The notes beneath the pieces are model-generated. The model was not told the DNA's origin. It did no database searches and saw only the letters and a list, made by a program, of their open reading frames with translations. The position numbers and the translations under genes are program-made. Positions 2,878 through 25,729 of a stretch of 34,950 nucleotides of DNA are shown piece by piece. Within the stretch, counting starts at the first letter, position 1. Every line of letters begins with the position of its first letter. Source of the DNA: Mollicutes bacterium (GTDB lineage: Bacteria > Bacillota_I > Bacilli_A > RF39 > UBA660); assembly GCA_012799635.1 (NCBI GenBank), contig JAAZKW010000002.1, positions 1 through 34,950 of the forward strand, given 5' to 3'.

Positions 2878-3489
2878 TTATACTTGTTTAAAGATGACTA
2901 CTATTTGTCTATTAGTATTATGTCTGCATGTAATTAATGTTAAAGTGGTGGTATTCTTTTCTTTAACTATTTCTGCTTTACCAGTTTTCTCAATATCATA
3001 TATGTCGACAACTTTATAGTTATATGTTTTACCATTATATATAATAGAAGCTTCATCACCTAATACTAACTTATCTAATTTTCTAAAATAAGATATTCTA
3101 GCACTACCTGAGTGTCCTGCAATTATAACATTGCCATTTTCTTGATCTGGCATAGATGAACCATCTAACCATTCAAGATTATAATTAACATTATTAAGAT
3201 AACTATTTAGATCTACTAAACCTCTTTCTAAACCAATTTTCGGAATTTTAAGTACAGCAATATAATTAACTTTAACTTGCTCTTTTACTTCTTCTATTTC
3301 TTGAGGTTCTTCTATAGATTCAATTTCTTCTTCTACTTCGTAAAAATCTTCTAACATTGTTGTTTCTTGATCATCTATTTTTTTGTTAGATAAATAATCA
3401 TATGATATTAATCCAATACCAGTAAGAAAAATTAAAGAGCCGATTACAATTAACCAGCTCTTATTTTTTGTTTTTCTTTTTGATTCCAT
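2878..3489 (-). CDS. Sortase, membrane-anchored transpeptidase
   Basis: This 203-residue protein has an N-terminal transmembrane anchor at about 11-30, an acidic stalk at 38-75 and a sortase beta-barrel. Catalytic residues are visible: His126 (IIAGHSG), Cys188 (TLTLITCRH) and Arg194 (NRQIVV). Sortases cleave a C-terminal sorting motif and join the protein to the cell wall or to another subunit. The neighbouring adhesin, whose 3' end overlaps this gene by 29 bases, carries a VPNTE-type motif and is the obvious substrate. The TLxTC context and lack of a C-terminal membrane segment fit a class D-like enzyme better than class C, but the class is uncertain. An AGGTG site lies 10 bases before the ATG. 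Confidence 0.88.
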   Translation of the reverse strand: MESKRKTKNKSWLIVIGSLIFLTGIGLISYDYLSNKKIDDQETTMLEDFYEVEEEIESIEEPQEIEEVKEQVKVNYIAVLKIPKIGLERGLVDLNSYLNNVNYNLEWLDGSSMPDQENGNVIIAGHSGSARISYFRKLDKLVLGDEASIIYNGKTYNYKVVDIYDIEKTGKAEIVKEKNTTTLTLITCRHNTNRQIVVIFKQV

Positions 3490-6244
3490 AAATAATTACA
3501 CCTGCTCCACAAACTAATAAAGTAATTCCACTAAATAATAAATCTTTATAATCTTCAGCTTCAGTATTTGGTACTTTAACTATTTGCTTATCTTTCATAA
3601 TTGATTTTACTACTTCTCCATCTTCCCTAATTTCAAAATACATTCTTTCAGGATTTAATTCATATCCTTCTGGAGCTTCCTTTTCTAAAATATAATAATT
3701 ACCATATTTTAATTTTTCTATAGTAATTGTTCCGTTATCATCAGTTCTTCCAGAGAATACTAATTCATCTGTATCAGCATTGTAAATTTCAATTAAAGTA
3801 TTTGGTAGTGGATTATCATTTGAAAAATCTAATTTAGTAAATTCTAATGTACCAGTAATGTCTTCATCTTTCATAGTAGATTTAACTATTTCACCATTTT
3901 CTTTTATTTCAAATGGCATTTTTTCTTCATTAAGTTTGTAACCCTCAGGTGCTTCTTTTTCTATGATATAGTACTTGCCTTGTGGAAGTCTATCAATAAC
4001 AATTTTACCTTCTTCATCAGTTCTACCACTAAATACTAGTTCATCATTTTCTGTATAGATTTCGATTAAGGTATTTGGTAGTGTTTTAGACTCAGAAATA
4101 TCTGTCTTAGTAAATTCAAGTTTACCAGTTTTTAAAATATTTAAGATTGCTTCTGAATGGAAAATTGTTGGAGTATATTGATCTTTATATACAAGTTCAG
4201 CTTCATATGTATTTTCATCTAAAACATAGTTATCTAATGTTTCAATTTCTTTAACATAATACTTACCAAGATATAATTCATCAAATACAATTTTACCTTC
4301 ACTATCAGATGTTTTTTCTGCTATTAAAGAATCTTTAGTATAAATTGTTTTACCATTCCATACGATATCTTCTAAAGCATATAATCCAAATTTAACTCCT
4401 TCTAATGATTCTGTTTTAAATTCAAAACCATTTTCAGTAAGTTCTGCAACTTCTCCAGTTTTTTCTATTTGAATTTCACCTTTAACTCTAGTGTTTTCAA
4501 AATCAGTATCAAATATTATTCCATACTCTGAATCAGTTCTTAAATTAGAATCTTCATCAATTGAAAATTCATGAGATTGACTATTCCATAAATAACCGTC
4601 AATTACTTGATCAACTTCTTCAAGTCTATAAGTTCCTGTCATTAATGGATAAGCTGTTGTAAATTCACCATCTTTGTCTGTTTCCCATACACAGATAGTT
4701 TCTTTATTTGGATATGTAATTGTTTGACATACATATTCATTTTTTGTAACATCAAATATTTTAAATTTAATATTACTTCTCTTTATTACTTCTTTAGTTT
4801 CAGAATCGATTTTAACAACTCTTAACTTAGCAGTAATTGGAGCATTTGAAATAACTTTCTTAACTACTTCTCCTGTAGTTTTAGCTTCTACAGTAAAGTC
4901 ATTTATTTTTTCATGTCCTTTAGTAGTAGTTAATTGTTTAATTGTATAAGTACCATAAGGTAAAGTAAATCTAAATACACCTTGTGAATCTGTAGTTACT
5001 TCTTCAACAAGTTCATTTTTATTGTTATAGATTCCAAACTTGATACCTACTTCTGGTTCCATTATTTGTGTTTCAGCACTAGCATATACTTTAGTAAATT
5101 CAAAATCTCTTTTGATTACTTGTTCAAATACTTGTACTTCAGGATTTAAATTATCCTCTGTTATTTCAAAATAATATTTATTACTATCTAACAAATATCC
5201 TTCTGATGGTTGTTCTTCTAATAAGTAGAATCTACCAAGTTCTGGTAAATAATCTGATGTATTTCTACCATCTTCATTTGTTACAACTTGTCCTACTCTA
5301 GTACCATCAACTTTATAAATTCCATAAACAGCTCCACCTAGTTTTGCTTCACCTTGAGGAGTGTTTGTTCTAGTTTCAACATCAACTTTCGCTGGTGTTA
5401 CTCTTCCACCTATAACCTTTAAAGTAAACTTACTTACTACTGGGTCAAAGTTACCAACTCTAAATACATTTTGTGAATGATCACTGAAATATACTATTGG
5501 TGGTATTTCATATTTAGTTGCTTTCTTTTCAAAAGTGATAGAACCTTCACCAATACTATTTGCAGTTACTGATAAAGTGTTTCCATTAATTGAAGCTGAC
5601 ACTTTATCTGTAGAAGTAACTTTATAATTACTTAATACATTATTATTATCATTGACTTCAATTGTACTTCCAATAGGTACAACTAATCCACTTTGTAATT
5701 GTGGTCTTTTATAATGATTTGCTACTAAACTTTCAAGTTCTGCTATTTCACTATCAAACTTAGATATTCTATTTCCATTTAGAGTATCTGTGAAAAATAT
5801 TTGAGATTCAGGATTTGTTGTTCTCCAAATCATAACTTGAGTAATAACATACCATTTTTGATCATTATGATTATATCCATTTTGGTCATATTGATATCCA
5901 TAATAAGCTAGTAAAGATATTCTTTCCCATTGTTCTTCACTAAAACCTAAAACTCTTTCATAATCCTCTCTTATTACATCATAATAAGGTAAATTATTAT
6001 CAATATCTGTGTATGGTTGTAAACAATAAACAAATTTATTATCTTCACTTCTTCTGATAAATCTTGCTTGTTGATACTTTGTATAACCATCTGGTTTTAC
6101 TTTTTTAATATAAATATTACTGATATATTCACTAGGCCATATAGCTTGTCCAGTATATTTTTCAGCATGTACTGTTGTAATATTAAAAATTGACAATAAA
6201 AAAAGTATGCTCATCATAGCACACTTAAATATTTTCGACTTCAT
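3461..6244 (-). CDS. Sortase-anchored thioester-domain adhesin with SpaA/Cna_B-like repeats
   Basis: This 927-residue secreted protein has a signal peptide ending near Ala27. Residues 28-190 look like a Gram-positive thioester domain: Cys74 in FVYCLQPY and Gln136 in YVITQVMIW match the paired Cys and Gln motifs that form an internal thioester able to bond host or surface amines covalently. About six prealbumin-like SpaA/Cna_B domains follow (roughly 280-890), several ending in EKEAPEGY-type E-box motifs expected to form isopeptide bonds. The C-terminus has VPNTE, a hydrophobic helix and KKKNKK, a non-canonical LPXTG-like sorting signal. It lies between a membrane protein and its sortase, so it probably acts in surface attachment or mating-pair contact. 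The last two repeats are near-duplicates. Confidence 0.88.
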   Translation of the reverse strand: MKSKIFKCAMMSILFLLSIFNITTVHAEKYTGQAIWPSEYISNIYIKKVKPDGYTKYQQARFIRRSEDNKFVYCLQPYTDIDNNLPYYDVIREDYERVLGFSEEQWERISLLAYYGYQYDQNGYNHNDQKWYVITQVMIWRTTNPESQIFFTDTLNGNRISKFDSEIAELESLVANHYKRPQLQSGLVVPIGSTIEVNDNNNVLSNYKVTSTDKVSASINGNTLSVTANSIGEGSITFEKKATKYEIPPIVYFSDHSQNVFRVGNFDPVVSKFTLKVIGGRVTPAKVDVETRTNTPQGEAKLGGAVYGIYKVDGTRVGQVVTNEDGRNTSDYLPELGRFYLLEEQPSEGYLLDSNKYYFEITEDNLNPEVQVFEQVIKRDFEFTKVYASAETQIMEPEVGIKFGIYNNKNELVEEVTTDSQGVFRFTLPYGTYTIKQLTTTKGHEKINDFTVEAKTTGEVVKKVISNAPITAKLRVVKIDSETKEVIKRSNIKFKIFDVTKNEYVCQTITYPNKETICVWETDKDGEFTTAYPLMTGTYRLEEVDQVIDGYLWNSQSHEFSIDEDSNLRTDSEYGIIFDTDFENTRVKGEIQIEKTGEVAELTENGFEFKTESLEGVKFGLYALEDIVWNGKTIYTKDSLIAEKTSDSEGKIVFDELYLGKYYVKEIETLDNYVLDENTYEAELVYKDQYTPTIFHSEAILNILKTGKLEFTKTDISESKTLPNTLIEIYTENDELVFSGRTDEEGKIVIDRLPQGKYYIIEKEAPEGYKLNEEKMPFEIKENGEIVKSTMKDEDITGTLEFTKLDFSNDNPLPNTLIEIYNADTDELVFSGRTDDNGTITIEKLKYGNYYILEKEAPEGYELNPERMYFEIREDGEVVKSIMKDKQIVKVPNTEAEDYKDLLFSGITLLVCGAGVIIYGIKKKNKK

Positions 6245-10447: not shown

Positions 10448-11557
10448 CTATTTTATTTTTCCTATCCAAGTACATAAATAATCTTGATGTACTAAGCATT
10501 CACTTTTTCTAAACTCTGGTTTTGGTAAAGTATCTGTTTGTTCATAGAAACAATATGGGTCTTTTTTATACATGTTTTTTTCGTCATTTACATGATAGTT
10601 GTACCAGTAAGCAGACGCTGCACATCCTCCTCGACAAACATCTTTTCTATCACAGTCTTTACATTCTTCAATTTTATGATAATTGGTATTTCTTTCTTTA
10701 AAACTCTTAAACTTTTCTGAGTTAATGATATCTAGTATATCGTCCTTAAGTAAGTCTCCAACTTGAAAGTGATGCATATATACACATGGGGAAACAGGTA
10801 CTTTTCCCTCTGCTGTAATACCATTTATTCTTAAAGATGATATTCCACAAGAACAACCTTTTATATGATCATTACTAAATTTAGCAGCTAATATGGGATC
10901 AGACATATCTAGAGTATAACAAGAATTAATTAATATTTTATAACCTTCTATAATTTGTTTCTTACTTGGCATCAATGCTAAATGAGCCTTTTCTGTGGGT
11001 TTTAACATATTAATTCTAATATTTGCATTATATTTCTTTACTAATTCTAGTAGTTTCATAATTTTTTCTGGATAAAAATTCCAATTCATTGCACACATTA
11101 CTACTGAACAATCTATACTATATTCATTACATATGTTTAAAGCTTTAATTGCTAGCTTAAAGGTATTTTGCCCACGGTTTTTATTATGTTCAGTTTCAAT
11201 TGGAGAATCAATTGATACATCTACATCATTAAGTAATTCTAGTGTTTCTGGAAAATGTTGTTTTAAATTTATTAAAGATATTCCTGATGTTGTAATGCCT
11301 GTCTTGATTCCCAGGTTTGATAATTTTTTTATAATATATGGCAAGAGACTCTTTTTAGCATCCAAACCATTTGTAAAAATTGGTTCATTTCCACCAAAAT
11401 TTACTGTTTCTACATCAAGTTTTAATATTTGTTCAATAATTCTATCTATTTTTTTAATATCTAAATTCTGCCCACGCTCTCTCACTTGCAATGAATAGCA
11501 ATGTTTACAATTACATGGACAAGCATTTCCTAATGTCCAACCTATATTTTTAATCAT
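10448..11557 (-). CDS. Radical SAM/SPASM-domain protein
   Basis: This 369-residue enzyme has the radical SAM motif CxxxCxxC at Cys13, Cys17 and Cys20 (CPCNCKHC). The barrel includes FGGNEPI, and a C-terminal SPASM-like cysteine set (CVYM; CKDCDRKDVCRGGCAASAY; DPYC) should hold auxiliary iron-sulfur clusters. Such enzymes commonly modify peptide side chains in RiPP pathways, or protein residues. It follows the B12 radical SAM gene by 10 bases and precedes the pyrophosphatase-like gene. With the HPr-kinase-like protein it suggests peptide modification, but no dedicated precursor is obvious except the 18-residue micro-ORF at the start of the operon. Confidence 0.87.
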   Translation of the reverse strand: MIKNIGWTLGNACPCNCKHCYSLQVRERGQNLDIKKIDRIIEQILKLDVETVNFGGNEPIFTNGLDAKKSLLPYIIKKLSNLGIKTGITTSGISLINLKQHFPETLELLNDVDVSIDSPIETEHNKNRGQNTFKLAIKALNICNEYSIDCSVVMCAMNWNFYPEKIMKLLELVKKYNANIRINMLKPTEKAHLALMPSKKQIIEGYKILINSCYTLDMSDPILAAKFSNDHIKGCSCGISSLRINGITAEGKVPVSPCVYMHHFQVGDLLKDDILDIINSEKFKSFKERNTNYHKIEECKDCDRKDVCRGGCAASAYWYNYHVNDEKNMYKKDPYCFYEQTDTLPKPEFRKSECLVHQDYLCTWIGKIK

Positions 11558-11567
11558 ATCTTTCTCC

Positions 11568-13109
11568 TTATCTTATAAATGGATTACATTCTGCATTATA
11601 TTTTAAATTTTCTTTTTTATATAAACTCTTCACTTTATCATGATGGGCTTTATAAAAACTTTGAGATGTTTCGACTAAGTTTTGAATATTTAAATCCTCT
11701 TGTTTTTTTCTGGCTATTAAAATCTTTTTAAATACTTCTAAATCTTTTCTTTTTAAATCATTAGCGATTAATAAAAGTGTATCTATGCTTTCATTACTGA
11801 TATTTTTAGGAGCAGATAATGGATCAATTGTCATATCATATATATAACTATGACTTTTGTGCCAATCTTTTAACTGTGTATAAATAATAGATGCATCTCT
11901 ATCTTTTATTTGGTAAGTATTATTTCCGCTTAAAGAATTTCCCTTCATTAAAATATTACTCGATTTTAATTTTTCGTTTAAAAGTGTACCTTCAGCAGAA
12001 TACATTTCAGAAAAAATACCTTTTGTAACTGTGAACATATGCTTCTTGAGAAAATAATAATTTTCCCATAATTCATCTACAGTTGTAAATCTATCAAACA
12101 ATATATAACCCATTTGCACAATGTAATTATGCTTATTAAATAACTCTAAGGCTTTTTCGTTATCATGCACTGTTGCGGTTTTATTCATTCTAGCTAAAGC
12201 TGTTGTAGATCCATTTTCTATACCACAAGCAAAAGAGAAAAAACCTGCTCTTTTAAGGTGATACAATATCGCATCACTTACTTTGTCTGCTCTAATTTGC
12301 CCTCTCAATCTTACTTTTATATTTCTTTTATTTATTTCCTCAGCAAAAGCTTTGCACCAATCTTCATTACGATCTCCATCTATAAAGCTATCATCAACCA
12401 TTTTAATTAAGTTAACACCTTGTTTATACAAAATTTCAATTTCATCAACAATATTTTTAATACTTCTTGTACGCCACTTTTTTCCTTGACTTTTCTTAAA
12501 AAAAGCTATCACAGAGCAAAAATCACAATTTCCACTACACCCACGTGAAGTAACCATATTTACTGAGGATTTTTTTGATAATACTTGATTTATAGTTTCT
12601 CTTGAGGGAAAAGGATAAATATCTAAATCTCCTAACATTGAGGCGGTATTGTTAAAATATTTATTACCAATGCACCACGATAGGCCCCTCACTCGCTCAA
12701 ATGAAAGATTTTTCTCAAGGCAATTTGCAAGTTCTACTATTGGTATTTCACCCTCACCTCGAATGACAAAGTCTGCTCCTTCTTTAAGAAATACCTCAGG
12801 AAAAAAAGTTGGGCCAAAACCACCACAAACAACTTTTATATCATCTTTCTTTAGTTTTTTTATTAATTTTATTGAATCTTCATTGTTTTGCATATACGAT
12901 GAAATACCAACAAATAGTAAATCTTCATTTTCTCTTATTTTTTGATAAACTTCATCAAGTGTAAGTTCTCCCAACCAACCATCTATTATGGTAACATTAT
13001 ATCCTCTTTTTTCAAGAGAAGCTTTTAAATATCCTAATCCAAGATTTTCTTCGGACGTTCTATGACTAATGGGTACTAAAGTTGTTAATACTATTTTCTT
13101 ATTTTTCAT
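11568..13109 (-). CDS. B12-binding-domain radical SAM protein
   Basis: This 513-residue protein has an N-terminal Rossmann-like cobalamin-binding domain at about 5-135 (LGLGYLKASLEKRGYNVTIID, then VGISSYMQNNEDS and VVCGGFGPTFFPEVFL). A radical SAM domain follows with CxxxCxxC at Cys191, Cys195 and Cys198 (CSGNCDFC). The usual cobalamin-ligating His motif (DxHxxG) is not seen, as in many members. Enzymes of this class often methylate unactivated carbons or rearrange substrates. The gene overlaps the HPr-kinase-like gene by 11 bases. The C-terminal 130 residues are helical and charged. Substrate unknown. Confidence 0.87.
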   Translation of the reverse strand: MKNKKIVLTTLVPISHRTSEENLGLGYLKASLEKRGYNVTIIDGWLGELTLDEVYQKIRENEDLLFVGISSYMQNNEDSIKLIKKLKKDDIKVVCGGFGPTFFPEVFLKEGADFVIRGEGEIPIVELANCLEKNLSFERVRGLSWCIGNKYFNNTASMLGDLDIYPFPSRETINQVLSKKSSVNMVTSRGCSGNCDFCSVIAFFKKSQGKKWRTRSIKNIVDEIEILYKQGVNLIKMVDDSFIDGDRNEDWCKAFAEEINKRNIKVRLRGQIRADKVSDAILYHLKRAGFFSFACGIENGSTTALARMNKTATVHDNEKALELFNKHNYIVQMGYILFDRFTTVDELWENYYFLKKHMFTVTKGIFSEMYSAEGTLLNEKLKSSNILMKGNSLSGNNTYQIKDRDASIIYTQLKDWHKSHSYIYDMTIDPLSAPKNISNESIDTLLLIANDLKRKDLEVFKKILIARKKQEDLNIQNLVETSQSFYKAHHDKVKSLYKKENLKYNAECNPFIR

Positions 13110-16540: not shown

Positions 16541-17569
16541 TTACTCTTTTTTGTCATTACTGGCTTCTTCTAATAATAAATCAAAATCCGATTTATATAA
16601 TTGATCCTGCTTTATTCTATATTTTTCAAATTCAGTTAACGCTTTATCGCATGCTATTTTATGAGAAATTTTTCCAGCATCTTTTAGAACGTCTAAATCA
16701 TCTGCTAGTAAATATTTATCAATTCTGGTTGACCAATCTTCCATAGTCATTGGAATATTTCTTTTAGCTCTGTTTTCTGCCAAATCTAAAAATGCCGATA
16801 CTATTCTTTCTAAGCTTTCTAATTCTTCCTTTGATAAATAGTTTTTAGCTATTGTAACATCCGTTTCTAAAATTTTACCTTTAGGTGAATTCTTCCATGA
16901 AGTTAATCCCATATATTCTCTTTCAGAATCAGCCCTATTATAAATAATCTCTGGAGCAGTCATTTTAGAAATAGCATAGTGCATTTTATTTTGTACTTTC
17001 TTAAAAAACTTAATCGTTGTTGGTGCTTTTGAATCATAATCAACACTAGTTGCATATATATCTGTTATTTTTTGATAAAATCTTCTTTCGGATAGTCTTA
17101 TTTCTCTTATTTCTGCTAATAATGAATCATAATAATCTTCATCAAAAAAAGCACCATTTTCCATACGTCTTCTATCAATAATATAACCTTTTTTAGAAAA
17201 CTCTTTTAATATATTAGTTGCCCATCTTCTAAATTGAATTGCTCTATCTGAGTTAACTCTATATCCTACAGAAATAACAGCATCTAAATTATAATATTTA
17301 ACAGTTCTTTTTACTTCTCTTTGGCCTTCTTTTTGAACTATCGAGAAATCCTCGGTAGTTGATTCTTTATCAAGTTCATAATCATTATAAATATTTTTTA
17401 AATGTAATCCCACATTATCAACTGAGCAATTGTATAATTCACTCATGGCTTTTTGAGTAAGCCATAAATCCCCATTTTCAAATCTAACTTGTACTCCTTT
17501 TGAATGTGTCTGCCTTTCAAATATTAAAAATTCCGCACTACTACTTCTAATTGTCAAATTATTCTTCAT
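16541..17569 (-). CDS. RhuM-family protein
   Basis: This 342-residue protein is of the virulence RhuM family: VRFENGDLWLTQKAMSELYN, then STTEDFSIVQKEGQR, YYNLDAVISVGYRVNSDRAI, QFRRWATNILKEF, and a helical C-terminal domain ending in charged residues. The N-terminal part resembles Bro-N/KilA-N-like DNA-binding domains. The function of the family is not established. The start is set at ATG 17569, with an AAAGGA site, rather than at the longer frame from 17644, which has none. One palindrome lies 14 bases before the start (17583-17607) and another inside the gene (17336-17360). Leader ORF 5 lies further upstream. The intact copy at 17794 is fused to a Doc domain, while this one is not. Confidence 0.87.
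   Translation of the reverse strand: MKNNLTIRSSSAEFLIFERQTHSKGVQVRFENGDLWLTQKAMSELYNCSVDNVGLHLKNIYNDYELDKESTTEDFSIVQKEGQREVKRTVKYYNLDAVISVGYRVNSDRAIQFRRWATNILKEFSKKGYIIDRRRMENGAFFDEDYYDSLLAEIREIRLSERRFYQKITDIYATSVDYDSKAPTTIKFFKKVQNKMHYAISKMTAPEIIYNRADSEREYMGLTSWKNSPKGKILETDVTIAKNYLSKEELESLERIVSAFLDLAENRAKRNIPMTMEDWSTRIDKYLLADDLDVLKDAGKISHKIACDKALTEFEKYRIKQDQLYKSDFDLLLEEASNDKKE
17336..17360. repeat. RhuM intragenic palindrome B (AACTATCGAG/CTCGGTAGTT)
   Basis: Ten-base arms with one G-T pair around a 5-base loop. It covers the codons S-T-T-E-D-F-S-I-V-Q, the same place as in the other two RhuM genes although the core sequence is different. Confidence 0.78.
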
Positions 17570-17582
17570 AAACTTCCTTTCT

Positions 17583-17607
17583 AACTTGCAATAAAAACTT
17601 GCTAGTT
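17583..17607. repeat. RhuM upstream palindrome B (AACTTGCAA/TTGCTAGTT)
   Basis: Nine-base arms with one mismatch around a 7-base loop, lying against the ribosome site of the RhuM gene. Its core TTGCAA matches the intragenic palindrome of the RhuM pseudogene (14533-14557). Confidence 0.6.
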
Positions 17608-17658
17608 CACATTTTATTTTATAAGGTATATGCATAATATGCACATACCAGTTCTATC

Positions 17659-17717
17659 AAAAGTGTAAAAACTTTTGCCATTTTTGACTGTTTTTCGATA
17701 AAAGTGTAAAAACTTTT
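17659..17717. repeat. Two copies of AAAAGTGTAAAAACTTTT in RhuM leader
   Basis: Exact copies at 17659-17676 and 17700-17717, separated by 23 bases, downstream (minus strand) of leader ORF 5 and its hairpin. Confidence 0.75.
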
Positions 17718-17735
17718 TTCGCTTCTTTCCTTATT

Positions 17736-17801
17736 TTATAAGGCTTGCGAGCTTTTCTCACTAGAGCCCATTTCCCAGTTGATATTTGTTTTATTATTCA
17801 T
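17736..17801 (-). CDS. Leader ORF 5 (21 residues, MNNKTNINWEMGSSEKS...)
   Basis: The ATG at 17801 overlaps the last 8 bases of the RhuM-Doc gene, whose AGAGGTG coding sequence serves as ribosome site. The peptide begins like leader ORF 4 and continues into WEMG like leader ORF 3. One G is missing relative to those leaders, so the tandem stops are bypassed and translation reaches TAA at 17736 inside the CCTTAT hairpin (about 17729-17743). Downstream gene: RhuM. The altered end makes it a natural variant for testing what the stop position does. Confidence 0.65.
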   Translation of the reverse strand: MNNKTNINWEMGSSEKSSQAL

Positions 17802-18753
17802 TTGAATCACCTCTTTTTAGGAAGTTCATTATTAAATCAATTAATATATTTTTTTCATTAGGATTAGATTCTGCTATTAAAAGAGTAATTGCAACAAGTG
17901 TATTATTATCAATAACTTCTTTACCTTCATAATATAAGATGTTATAAAAGTCTAAAAAGTAAATAAATAATGTAGCGGCAATTCTTTTATTTCCATCAAT
18001 AAATATGTGATTTTTAGTAATTAAATATAAAAAGTTAGCAGCCTTTTCTTCAATAGTTTTATATACATCTTCACCATCAAATGTTTGATATATGTTCCCA
18101 ATTATTGCTTCAAGACCTTTATTTCTTTCAAGAGCAAATAAATCAGAATCATTATTAAATTTTAATTTATTAATTATTTTTATACATTCTTCATAAGTTA
18201 TTTTTTTATCATCAAATAAACCTTTTGGTTTAATTATTTTTTTATGATCATAATCATCAAGTAAATCTAATGCTTCTTTATAATTATTAATAACTTTAAT
18301 AATATCTTTTGCTTCATCACCTGTTAAATTAGAATCAATTCTTCCTGCGATATCTATTAATTGAACTTTCTTTTCTAAATACTTTAATCTTTTTTGATTA
18401 ATAGCATATCCTTTTATTAGATAATCTTTTAATATTTCATTAGCCCATTTTCTAAAAGTTATACCGTTTTTAGATTTAACTCTATAACCGACTGATATTA
18501 TCATATCTAAATTATAATAATTAATATTACGTTTAACTTTTCTATTTCCTTCTTTTTGAACTGTCGCAAATTTTGCGACAGTTGAAGAATCAAGCTCTTC
18601 ATTTAAAGCATTATTAATATGTTTCCTAATTGTTTTAGAATCTCGATTAAATAATTCTGCTATTTGCTCTGAATTTAACCAAACTGTATCATCGTTTACA
18701 TTAACTTCTAATTTAACTTTTTGGTCTTCAAAAATTACTAATTCATTTTTCAT
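17794..18753 (-). CDS. RhuM-Doc (Fic-fold) fusion protein
   Basis: This 319-residue protein joins a RhuM N-terminal domain (VNDDTVWLNSEQIAELFNRD; STVAKFATVQKEGNRK; YYNLDMIISVGYRVKS; FRKWANEILKDY) to a C-terminal Fic/Doc domain. The Fic motif is HIFIDGNKRIAATLF, close to the Doc form HxFxDxNKR. Doc enzymes phosphorylate EF-Tu and other Fic proteins transfer AMP, so the protein could be a growth-control toxin or a regulator. No separate antitoxin gene is visible, but the RhuM part might give DNA binding or self-control. Palindromes lie inside the gene (18559-18583) and upstream (18823-18853). Leader ORF 6 precedes it. Start has a GAAAGGAG site. Confidence 0.88.
   Translation of the reverse strand: MKNELVIFEDQKVKLEVNVNDDTVWLNSEQIAELFNRDSKTIRKHINNALNEELDSSTVAKFATVQKEGNRKVKRNINYYNLDMIISVGYRVKSKNGITFRKWANEILKDYLIKGYAINQKRLKYLEKKVQLIDIAGRIDSNLTGDEAKDIIKVINNYKEALDLLDDYDHKKIIKPKGLFDDKKITYEECIKIINKLKFNNDSDLFALERNKGLEAIIGNIYQTFDGEDVYKTIEEKAANFLYLITKNHIFIDGNKRIAATLFIYFLDFYNILYYEGKEVIDNNTLVAITLLIAESNPNEKNILIDLIMNFLKRGDSNE
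18559..18583. repeat. RhuM intragenic palindrome C (AACTGTCGCAAA arms)
   Basis: Twelve perfect pairs with one central base. It covers the codons S-T-V-A-K-F-A-T-V-Q of the RhuM-Doc gene. Confidence 0.85.
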
Positions 18754-22643: not shown

Positions 22644-23996
22644 TTATTTATTTTTTTTATTTTCTTTTACTACTTTTTCATCTTTAGGAAGTTCTTTTTT
22701 GGTTTTTTCTTTAACTTTTTGTTCTTTATCTTTAATTTTAGGTTTTCTTTTAAAAGATAGCATAATAATTATTGATAATGCAGTTGTTGATAAAAATATA
22801 ATTGTTGTTGCTAAATATATTTTATTTAACTTTCTAAGAGTATAGATATCTTTTAAATCATATTTAACTGCTGTTTTATCAACTATATCAAGCAAATAAA
22901 GCCCTTCTTCACCGTTAAGGATATTCTTTGCATTTATTAATTTAAATCTTTTATCAATTTTATATACATCTATTTTACCATCAAAATCAATAGTTTCTTT
23001 TTCATAATTAAGCACCTTATTTCCAATTGATAATGGTGTTAATTTTAAATTACCTAATTTTAATTCTAAAAACCTTTCATATTTATTTTTTTCATACTTA
23101 TATAAATAGATATTACCTGCTTCATCTTTTAAACCAACAAGAGTATAATTAATCTTCTTATTGTAAAACGCCGGTATATCAATATCACTCATTTTAATAG
23201 TTGTTTCTTCAAAACCTGATGGAATTGTTAAATATTCTTTATATTTTACTAAATGATAAGTTACATTATCTATTATTATTTCAATAGGATTCTTATCAAT
23301 TACATTAACATTAAGAATATATATTCTTTCACTACCATTTTGGGCTCTAACAACAATATTTAATTTATTATTACCTACAACAACTTCTTTTTCTCCAAGA
23401 CCATCAATTGTTGATCTATTATCATTTGCTACAGCCTTTATATTTATAGTCTTAGTATTCTCTGGAACCTCTACAGAATATTCTAAAGTATCTTTATTAA
23501 ATACTGGGTTTATTTCAAATTCATCAACTGATAAAGATTTTAAATAATTATCTTTTGAATATGATGCTTCAATTTCTTGTTGAGTCATAATTTTCAAATT
23601 TTTATTATAGGTCCTAACAGTCATTTCTCCCATGGTATCAAAATCATATAAACTGCTACTTCCAATTGACAATAAAGTATTTCCTGCTTTTAAAGTTCTA
23701 AAAGTAAAAGTATATACCTTCTTATTAATACCAGAAGCTCCCGCAACTTTATTAGCCATGAATGTTCCCCCATTATCAGCATCTGATCCTATTAACTTTA
23801 AAAAACTAGAATCATAGTTTAAAGTAAGTTCCCAAGAACCAATTGCTGCCGATGATGATAAAGTAACATACATTTTAATATTATTTCCAACAGCAGCTGT
23901 ATTTACTCCAGTAATTGCTATCGTAGCATTTGAAGCAAACACCAACTTTGGAAGCAATAATATTGTAAAAAGAATTATTATTTTTATTTTTTTCAT
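22644..23996 (-). CDS. Membrane-anchored cohesin-domain protein
   Basis: This 450-residue protein has a signal peptide ending near Ala21. Residues 22-135 look like a cohesin domain (ATIAITGVNTAAVGNNIKMY, IGSWELTLNYDSSFLKLIGS, FTFRTLKAGNTLLSIGSSS). Residues 150-232 resemble a cadherin-like beta-sandwich (LKSLSVDEFEINPVFNKDTL). A beta-rich region, a transmembrane helix near 393-413 and a Lys/Glu-rich cytoplasmic tail follow. Cohesins bind dockerin domains, and the gene directly upstream, 11 bases away in the same operon, encodes a dockerin-bearing wall hydrolase. The likely job is to hold that enzyme at the membrane. A GAAAGGAAT site precedes the ATG. Confidence 0.82.
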   Translation of the reverse strand: MKKIKIIILFTILLLPKLVFASNATIAITGVNTAAVGNNIKMYVTLSSSAAIGSWELTLNYDSSFLKLIGSDADNGGTFMANKVAGASGINKKVYTFTFRTLKAGNTLLSIGSSSLYDFDTMGEMTVRTYNKNLKIMTQQEIEASYSKDNYLKSLSVDEFEINPVFNKDTLEYSVEVPENTKTINIKAVANDNRSTIDGLGEKEVVVGNNKLNIVVRAQNGSERIYILNVNVIDKNPIEIIIDNVTYHLVKYKEYLTIPSGFEETTIKMSDIDIPAFYNKKINYTLVGLKDEAGNIYLYKYEKNKYERFLELKLGNLKLTPLSIGNKVLNYEKETIDFDGKIDVYKIDKRFKLINAKNILNGEEGLYLLDIVDKTAVKYDLKDIYTLRKLNKIYLATTIIFLSTTALSIIIMLSFKRKPKIKDKEQKVKEKTKKELPKDEKVVKENKKNK

Positions 23997-24007
23997 TTTA
24001 TTCCTTT

Positions 24008-25729
24008 CTATTCATTTATTTTATACATACCTAATATGTTTTTATGGATTTGTAGTAAATCAAGGGCTCCAACCTTACCATCATTTGAAGAATCAGCAGC
24101 CCTTATTTGAGCATCATTTAAATTATACATACCTAATATGTTTTTATGAACTTGAAGTAAATCAAGGGCATTAATTTTACCATCACCAGAAGTATCGCCT
24201 TTTACAACAATTTTTAAATCTTCACTTGTTGTAGCATTTGATATTGTTATAGTATATCCTGTACCAACATTTCCACTTGTTACTTTTTCACCAACAGTAT
24301 TTTTAATATTTACTGTTGCTCCAAGTGATACAAAAGCATTAGTTAAAGCCTCAACTGAAGTTTCATCTTTCACTCTATTTAAATAACCCGAAGAATAACT
24401 ATACCCTGCTTTAGTTGCTATAGTACTTATTTCACTATTCGAAGGTATTGTTGGGGTATCATCTGGAGTACTACCACTGTTAGAATTAACAATCTCTACA
24501 TCCATATTTGTATATACCGGAATATAAAAATTATATGGAAGATCTAATAAACTATTATTATTATACGTACTATATGTAATTTTTGACTCACTTACTGGGG
24601 CCCCAATATTAGTCATATATTGATGTAAAAACAACTTATTTTTATCATTAGGATTAACATTAAACTTTTGCAAATACATTGTATCTTGTCCTACAGCAAT
24701 ATATCCCGAGGATAGAAAGACAGCACCACCATGAAGAGCACCATAAATGGAATTCCACCCTTTACTTTTCGCATAACTTAAACCACAATAAGTTGTTCCA
24801 CTTACCTTAACACAAGAATCTGACACTCCATAGTTATAAAAGTTATAATAACCATAATATTCACCAGGATAAACACCACTATATAGATTAAACAATGAAG
24901 TTGTACGTCCTAATTCCTGAAGGATTCTCGATGCTAAAAAAATAGGACTAACATTAGCATCTTTTCCAGCTTCTCTAAGAGTTCCCGAAAAATCTACTCC
25001 ATTTTGAACATGATAAGTATAAAAATTAGCACTTTGTACTATTGAAGTTATTGCTGGCGAATATGATTCATATAATCCTTCAGTATATTTCAGATTTTCA
25101 AATTGAAAAATAGTGTTTTCATTAAACCAATTTCGAGGATCCATATATATAGCTACGGCTTTCTTCGAAGCTGGATATGGCCCGTTGGGATATTGACCAA
25201 TACAACTACTATCAATAAATTCTGTATTACTACTATTAGTGTAAACATAACTAAGGCCACATTTACTTTCTTGATTAACAGCAGTTTGCCAATCAATATT
25301 TGTTATTATAGGATAAAAATTCCAATTAGGACGATTTTTCTTTAAAGCACAAAGACCAGTAACATAACTTTGATGAAATCCAAGAGCTATAAGAGATTGT
25401 TCACATTCTCCATCAACAGATATAACCTCTTCTTCCATTTCTTTTACCTCTATATAATCAGAACATGCATAACCAGTTATTACTGGTGAATATTTTAATT
25501 TATACCATCCTGCAGCACAACCCATTTCAGAAGGTATTTTTTCATTTGACTCTAACTCATAAGTTGAGCCTAAATGTAATGAAGCAATGTAGCTATGATT
25601 AGTTCCAGGGCCTGTCCTTAAATTTACCCCATTTCCTGTTAGTACTCCTTGATATTTTACAGCAAAAACAGGAATTTTTCCCATAAAAAAGCTAAAAATG
25701 AATAATATTAAAAACATTTTCTTTTTCAT
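24008..25729 (-). CDS. Secreted SH3/glucosaminidase-like cell-wall hydrolase with dockerin
   Basis: This 573-residue protein has a signal peptide ending near Ala23. An SH3-type domain lies at 26-95 (GNGVNLRTGPGTNHSYIASL). A glucosaminidase-like catalytic region at about 105-400 contains NWFNENTIFQFENL, SPIFLASRILQELGR and the YYGYYNFYNYGV motif seen in LytG/Auto-like N-acetylglucosaminidases. A beta-rich region follows, and the C-terminus (about 510-573) has two dockerin repeats: GDTSGDGKINALDLLQVHKN and SSNDGKVGALDLLQIHKN, with calcium-loop Asp/Asn residues. It should cut peptidoglycan and dock to the cohesin protein encoded next in the operon. AGGAGG lies before the ATG, and an extended -10 promoter (TGATATAAT) lies at 25754-25762. 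Confidence 0.88.
   Translation of the reverse strand: MKKKMFLILFIFSFFMGKIPVFAVKYQGVLTGNGVNLRTGPGTNHSYIASLHLGSTYELESNEKIPSEMGCAAGWYKLKYSPVITGYACSDYIEVKEMEEEVISVDGECEQSLIALGFHQSYVTGLCALKKNRPNWNFYPIITNIDWQTAVNQESKCGLSYVYTNSSNTEFIDSSCIGQYPNGPYPASKKAVAIYMDPRNWFNENTIFQFENLKYTEGLYESYSPAITSIVQSANFYTYHVQNGVDFSGTLREAGKDANVSPIFLASRILQELGRTTSLFNLYSGVYPGEYYGYYNFYNYGVSDSCVKVSGTTYCGLSYAKSKGWNSIYGALHGGAVFLSSGYIAVGQDTMYLQKFNVNPNDKNKLFLHQYMTNIGAPVSESKITYSTYNNNSLLDLPYNFYIPVYTNMDVEIVNSNSGSTPDDTPTIPSNSEISTIATKAGYSYSSGYLNRVKDETSVEALTNAFVSLGATVNIKNTVGEKVTSGNVGTGYTITISNATTSEDLKIVVKGDTSGDGKINALDLLQVHKNILGMYNLNDAQIRAADSSNDGKVGALDLLQIHKNILGMYKINE

Follow-up and report, generated by a model that had tools for sequence, protein, structure and literature searches.

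The 34,950-nucleotide window analysed here (contig JAAZKW010000002.1, C47 in our set, of the Mollicutes bacterium assembly GCA_012799635.1; RF39, UBA660) carries two adjacent genes, Orf A and Orf B, whose products we interpret as a wall hydrolase in two parts, tethered to the membrane. Orf A is a predicted secreted N-acetylglucosaminidase that ends in a dockerin, and Orf B is a predicted single-pass membrane anchor that begins with a cohesin. In the reading that we favor, with a probability of about 0.75, Orf A would be exported and released from the membrane, and Orf B would remain there as a type I protein (N-out, C-in). The dockerin of Orf A would clip onto the cohesin of Orf B with calcium, and this private clip would hold the glucosaminidase close to the membrane, where it would act on freshly synthesized peptidoglycan of the same cell. 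As a receptor, Orf B would be dedicated to one cargo, and related anchors would bear other wall enzymes.

Both genes lie on the minus strand, with Orf B 11 base pairs (bp) downstream of Orf A; the initial annotation had placed an adjacent dockerin enzyme and cohesin gene at 22644-25729, and these coordinates are correct. It had also described a glucosaminidase-like protein ending in two dockerin repeats, in agreement with our comparisons. The NCBIfam SagB model matches residues 247-391 of Orf A (8.9e-13; 48 bits against a model cut-off of 425), and matches in the PDB to residues 252-393 include Staphylococcus aureus SagB (6fxp/6u0o, about 1e-9), AtlA, and AtlE; among named families, the catalytic region is nearest to SagB. 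The putative catalytic acid, Glu272, aligns with the glutamate of the SagB LLETG motif (6fxp) and is unchanged in 67/67 aligned homologues. The SH3_3 match upstream of the catalytic region scores 24.4 bits, just under the Pfam cut-off of 27. At the C-terminus, the Dockerin_1 (PF00404) match is above cut-off and spans the full model. The calcium-binding positions, whose lack would have spoken against a dockerin, are kept: positions 1/3/5/9/12 read D,S,D,N,D in the first repeat and D,S,D,G,D in the second, with a glycine at position 9, and the aspartate at position 12 is found in 68/68 first and 65/68 second repeats of the homologues. None of the 68 mature Orf A homologues has a transmembrane (TM) segment beyond the signal peptide.

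The N-terminal domain of Orf B models as a cohesin. The Pfam Cohesin family (PF00963) matches residues 26-115 (2e-7, above cut-off), and the AlphaFold2 (AF2) model of the protein, with a mean predicted local distance difference test score (pLDDT) of 89.6, leads to the same assignment by Foldseek. The best PDB matches to the cohesin model are the Clostridium perfringens cohesins 2w1n (9e-9) and 2jh2 (6e-7; TM-score 0.69 to the target), and the archaeal non-cellulosomal cohesin 2xdh is also among the matches. A phmmer search of Orf B against the PDB returned no match, whereas the fold search matched cohesins. According to the initial annotation, the cohesin is followed by a TM helix; both are present, but they do not adjoin directly, since a Cadherin-like domain, present in 68/68 homologues, and a beta-rich juxtamembrane domain lie between them. 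Averaged over the 68 anchors, the net charge is +5.3 in the 15 residues after the predicted TM helix and -1.1 before it. No LPXTG-like sorting signal was found in the C-terminal region of any Orf A or Orf B homologue.

The arrangement recurs among relatives. Our comparison set comprised 117 relatives, 70 of them genomes of the same family, and a homologue of the glucosaminidase is present in 53 of these 70. The fetched loci contain 72 glucosaminidase open reading frames (ORFs), 68 of which have a dockerin-type C-terminus and a complete downstream gene. In all 68, this downstream gene encodes a homologous anchor on the same strand, with a signal peptide and a C-terminal TM segment and charged tail. 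The spacing between the two genes is -28 to +42 bp in 67 cases, and the value of -86 in the remaining one depends on the choice of start codon. The recurrence in 68/68 relatives indicates that the two-gene arrangement is not due to chance. Regarding the other four ORFs, L016 and L157 are truncated at a contig end, and L166, from a distant genome, contributes a tandem of two enzymes that have neither a dockerin nor an anchor. One dockerin (L129) was overlooked by the single-sequence search and confirmed by Pfam. The pair that had been seen as one two-gene case is real, and it is in fact family-wide, with related families carrying other wall-enzyme cargos.

The sequences of the dockerin and the cohesin change together. 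Pairwise distances of the two domains correlate with r = 0.83 across the 68 pairs and 0.78 across 58 non-redundant pairs. In a division of the locus into seven segments, a partial correlation of 0.68 between dockerin and cohesin remains once the other segments are all taken into account (58 non-redundant pairs); the next highest value, 0.40, links the Cadherin-like and juxtamembrane domains of the same chain. The dockerin shows a value of 0.13 with the adjacent pre-dockerin segment, and the cohesin one of 0.20 with the Cadherin-like domain. The dockerin-cohesin signal holds inside DLL-type dockerins alone (0.57) and in the remainder (0.58). Permutation of the dockerin-cohesin distances gave 0/2000, but the permuted data retain the relatedness of the genomes, and the argument is therefore the contrast between segments rather than a p-value. 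This co-variation, specific to the adjacent pair, supports a real partnership of the two proteins.

The dockerin repeats are consistent with such a partnership. Positions 10, 11, 13, 14, 17, 18, 20, and 21, all on the recognition face in type I dockerins, are the same in both repeats of a dockerin in 79-97% of the 68 proteins, but match between proteins in only 22-57%. Repeats that are alike within a protein and change between species would fit two alternative, equivalent binding modes. The two domains also stand out in the sister genomes G005 and G009, which differ little in the rest of the locus and have enzyme catalytic domains ~99% identical. At the DNA level, their dockerins are ~68-80% and their cohesins ~58-80% identical, with ~93% for the signal peptide between them. 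The divergence runs on at ~90% through residue 340 of Orf B, making a recombination tract likely; within it, the dockerin and the cohesin are the most divergent parts of the locus.

Such a tract spanning both domains, together with the fact that their coding segments lie within ~700 bp, could mean that the co-variation reflects linkage only, with adjacent DNA recombining together. We regard this as very improbable, because the signal is absent from the segments on either side and from the signal peptide that lies between the two domains (partial correlations of 0.13 with the dockerin and -0.06 with the cohesin). It is unlikely, to a lesser degree, that the anchor serves a wider dockerin set as a small surface-display scaffold. 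Some genomes (G028, G052, and G059) have up to 12 dockerin matches with few cohesins detected, and the paralogous pairs L122 and L159, both in G045, have near-identical dockerins. However, the extra dockerin proteins bring their own adjacent anchor in several genomes, and the co-variation is confined to the adjacent pair. The window's own genome also speaks against this explanation. The search for further dockerins suggested by the initial annotation found none beside that of Orf A, and the genome has a single Pfam-detectable cohesin, a lower bound given that Pfam detects 20/68 homologous anchors at E 0.01. With no second dockerin in an assembly that is 88.65% complete (1.147 Mb, 61 contigs), the Orf A/Orf B pair looks private.

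Another question is whose wall the enzyme would cut. In 28/68 loci, the fetched flanks contain a glycosyltransferase of PF00953 (20 loci), a family that includes TagO/WecA/MraY-type enzymes, or a protein of the LytR-CpsA-Psr family (17 loci), which links wall polymers to peptidoglycan; in many cases, the gene in question directly adjoins the pair. The source genome encodes two transpeptidases and MltG and therefore makes a wall. Taken together, wall synthesis, the short membrane tether, and the wall-polymer neighbors, a context that comes from relatives and not from the window's own locus, favor the cell's own wall as the probable target. A tethered hydrolase aimed at other bacteria, for predation or foraging on foreign peptidoglycan as in the proposed "lyticome", appears improbable to us. 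The organisms are indeed small-genome gut commensals, and dockerin-bearing wall hydrolases and lysozyme activity have been reported for the cellulosome of Ruminococcus champanellensis, for which a lytic complex of multiple enzymes was proposed (PMC6403190). Yet the present system has a single enzyme and a single anchor without a multi-cohesin scaffold, its single-pass anchor with ~370 ectodomain residues should confine the enzyme to the wall of its own cell or to the space beneath it, and its neighbors in relatives are genes of wall-polymer synthesis. A tentative narrower proposal, possible but with the odds somewhat against it, is that the pair performs the strict SagB-SpdC step and cuts nascent strands from their lipid anchor. 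SagB with SpdC (LyrA) is described as a peptidoglycan-releasing factor of S. aureus (PMC12272431), the Orf A catalytic region is closest to SagB, and the source genome has two membrane proteins of the Rce1/CPBP type, to which SpdC also belongs. On the other hand, an SpdC orthologue was not identified, no test of orthology having been made, CPBP proteins are widespread (matched in 11/14 control genomes), the SagB score is far under the model cut-off, and MltG, which also acts on nascent strands, is present. The proposal that the cell holds its own wall hydrolase at the membrane, already made in the initial annotation, gains support from synteny, co-variation, and the wall-polymer genes of relatives.

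Several observations weigh against this interpretation of Orf A and Orf B as a tethered own-wall hydrolase. The Pfam cohesin model recognizes a minority of the anchors, as noted above, and the cohesin identity of the divergent ones therefore rests on position and co-variation. The distance correlations use related pairs as data points and do not amount to a formal test. When AF2 was given the dockerin and cohesin of L006 as a single chain, possible by read-through of the stop codon because the spacing is in frame, each domain folded (pLDDT 94.2), but the predicted TM-score (pTM) was only 0.58, too low for a confident prediction of docking. Finally, no wall gene neighbors the pair in the window itself, where the adjacent genes encode a secreted nuclease and a tRNA synthetase.

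The anchor extends beyond this family. A profile of the anchor backbone (A3), to which the beta-rich juxtamembrane domain belongs, detects full-length relatives in f13, f16, and f19, three further families of the class, with no match outside the class among 392 genomes of the phylum at E 1e-25. At 14 loci, the gene just upstream of the A3 anchor ends in a dockerin. We scanned the domains of 11 of these cargo proteins (ten together and L187): eight carry a PF01832 glucosaminidase, and the others are a GH25 protein (L172), an Amidase_2 protein (L175), and a metallo-beta-lactamase-fold protein (L177). Three genomes (G141, G430, and G370) have two pairs each, with differing cargos. It is an evenly balanced proposal that these Bacilli families share a general docking-operon system, in which dedicated single-pass receptors, built of cohesin, Cadherin-like domain, beta domain, TM helix, and charged tail (with a Y-D/N-I-F-E-D-D-type motif in some), would hold different own-wall hydrolases through a pair-specific, fast co-evolving specificity, possibly with tail coupling inward.

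At L177:3136-5644, a ComEC-like metallo-beta-lactamase-fold enzyme with a dockerin precedes an anchor of this kind, and a glucosaminidase pair occurs in that genome as well. The window's genus has a second operon, more distantly related, in which a papain-type C1 protease with a C-terminal dockerin is followed by its own anchor with Cadherin-like repeats (L160:2497-7240, L161:2063-7872, L162, and L163), with a cohesin in L161. No cohesin was detectable in three TM-bearing backbone anchors, L180:4349-5395, L181:4521-5501, and L182:87-1262, the last of which extends to the edge region of its contig and might lack part of its 5' end; these anchors may hold their partner by another means. The cytoplasmic tails of 15/68 anchors share a Y/F-D/N-hydrophobic-E/D motif (YDIFEDD and similar), with 0.03 expected from shuffles, the motif having been defined on the very tails in which it was counted. 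Such tails read like E-x-Y-D-I-F-E-D-D followed by lysines (for example, L123:4569-6113, L120:4420-6015, and L006:2069-3559). The motif is absent from Orf B of the window; where it is shared, it hints at a possible partner inside the cell.

Table 1. Features of the Orf A/Orf B locus, in window coordinates.
Feature	Position	Strand	Basis
Orf A, 573 aa, secreted SagB/GH73-like N-acetylglucosaminidase (predicted), C-terminal dockerin	24008..25729	-	
Orf A signal peptide (aa 1-23)	25661..25729	-	read from sequence
Orf A bacterial SH3 domain (aa 34-94)	25448..25630	-	SH3_3 3.4e-5
Orf A glucosaminidase catalytic region (aa 105-405)	24515..25417	-	SagB, PDB, homologue matches
Orf A codon of Glu272, putative catalytic acid	24914..24916	-	conservation and SagB alignment
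Orf A type I dockerin (aa 510-566), two near-identical repeats	24032..24202	-	PF00404 1.2e-10
Orf B ribosome-binding site, AAAGGA	24002..24007	-	within 11-bp spacer, read from sequence
Orf B, 450 aa, cohesin-bearing single-pass membrane anchor (predicted)	22644..23996	-	
Orf B signal peptide (aa 1-21)	23934..23996	-	hydrophobic segment aa 4-22
Orf B cohesin domain (aa 22-136)	23589..23933	-	PF00963, AF2 model, Foldseek
Orf B Cadherin-like beta-sandwich domain (aa 152-231)	23304..23543	-	PF12733 6.4e-7
Orf B conserved beta-rich juxtamembrane domain (aa 233-380)	22857..23300	-	AF2 model
Orf B TM helix (aa 395-413)	22758..22814	-	hydropathy; AF2 helix 381-415
Orf B Lys/Arg-rich cytoplasmic tail (aa 416-450)	22647..22751	-	charge distribution

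Elsewhere in the window, always on the minus strand, an adhesin/pilin-like locus (2878-6244) consists of a sortase gene and, beside it, the gene of a 927-residue surface protein that combines a thioester domain with six SpaA repeats. Two neighboring radical SAM genes lie at 10448-13109, one with a SPASM and the other with a B12-binding domain, and a pair of RhuM-family genes, one with a Fic domain, at 16541-18753. Among the relatives, LytR-CpsA-Psr neighbors of the pair occur at L112, L114, L115, L132, L138, L142, and other loci, and the member scanned (L153) has a PASTA domain. We also considered the pair as a replacement for sortase or for MltG and rejected both, as five sortase genes are present in the source genome and MltG is found there and in most pair-bearing relatives.

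Most known cohesin-dockerin pairs act in plant-polymer degradation, and a few belong to toxin complexes; in the present system, the pairing would serve as a housekeeping device. The clip would be reversible and would decide where the cell keeps a potentially lethal enzyme. The dozens of natural matched pairs should be useful to decode cohesin-dockerin specificity and to build orthogonal protein clips, and the control of wall hydrolases in small-genome gut Bacilli becomes directly testable.

With the cellulosomal type I system, the pair shares the dockerin family, the duplicated calcium loops, the symmetric recognition surface, and the cohesin fold. It differs in having one receptor and one cargo in one operon, and no repeated-cohesin scaffoldin, carbohydrate-binding module, or dockerin-tagged plant-polymer enzyme was found. 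Single cohesins outside cellulosomes are also found in the non-cellulosomal cohesin (X82)/dockerin toxin complexes of C. perfringens, which provide the solved folds nearest to Orf B (2w1n and 2jh2), but those cohesins are modules of secreted glycoside hydrolases (PMC12997984) and not of a membrane anchor. R. champanellensis likewise has dockerin-tagged wall hydrolases; these join the cellulosome scaffold, and the description of them mentions no adjacent gene for a dedicated membrane cohesin (PMC6403190). Single cohesins with a C-terminal TM helix have been reported, for example, from H. luporum, C. cibarium, and Lachnoclostridium sp. MSJ-17; they are candidate cellulosome scaffoldins with unclear partners and no tie to a wall hydrolase of the same operon (PMC11557425). 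In the open-licence literature, including work on autolysins, glucosaminidases, and Erysipelotrichaceae, we found neither a report of a wall hydrolase paired with a dedicated membrane cohesin nor a paper linking a dockerin with RF39.

The closest functional parallel of the pair would be membrane-held SagB, which reportedly releases nascent glycan strands from the membrane by cleavage. SagB bears a membrane segment of its own. It partners a polytopic CPBP-family protein, whereas Orf A has no TM segment and is predicted to be held by a single-pass cohesin protein. Common to S. aureus SagB-SpdC and, by prediction, to the Orf A/Orf B pair are a membrane-held glucosaminidase, a related catalytic region, and action on the side of the wall that faces the membrane (PMC12272431).
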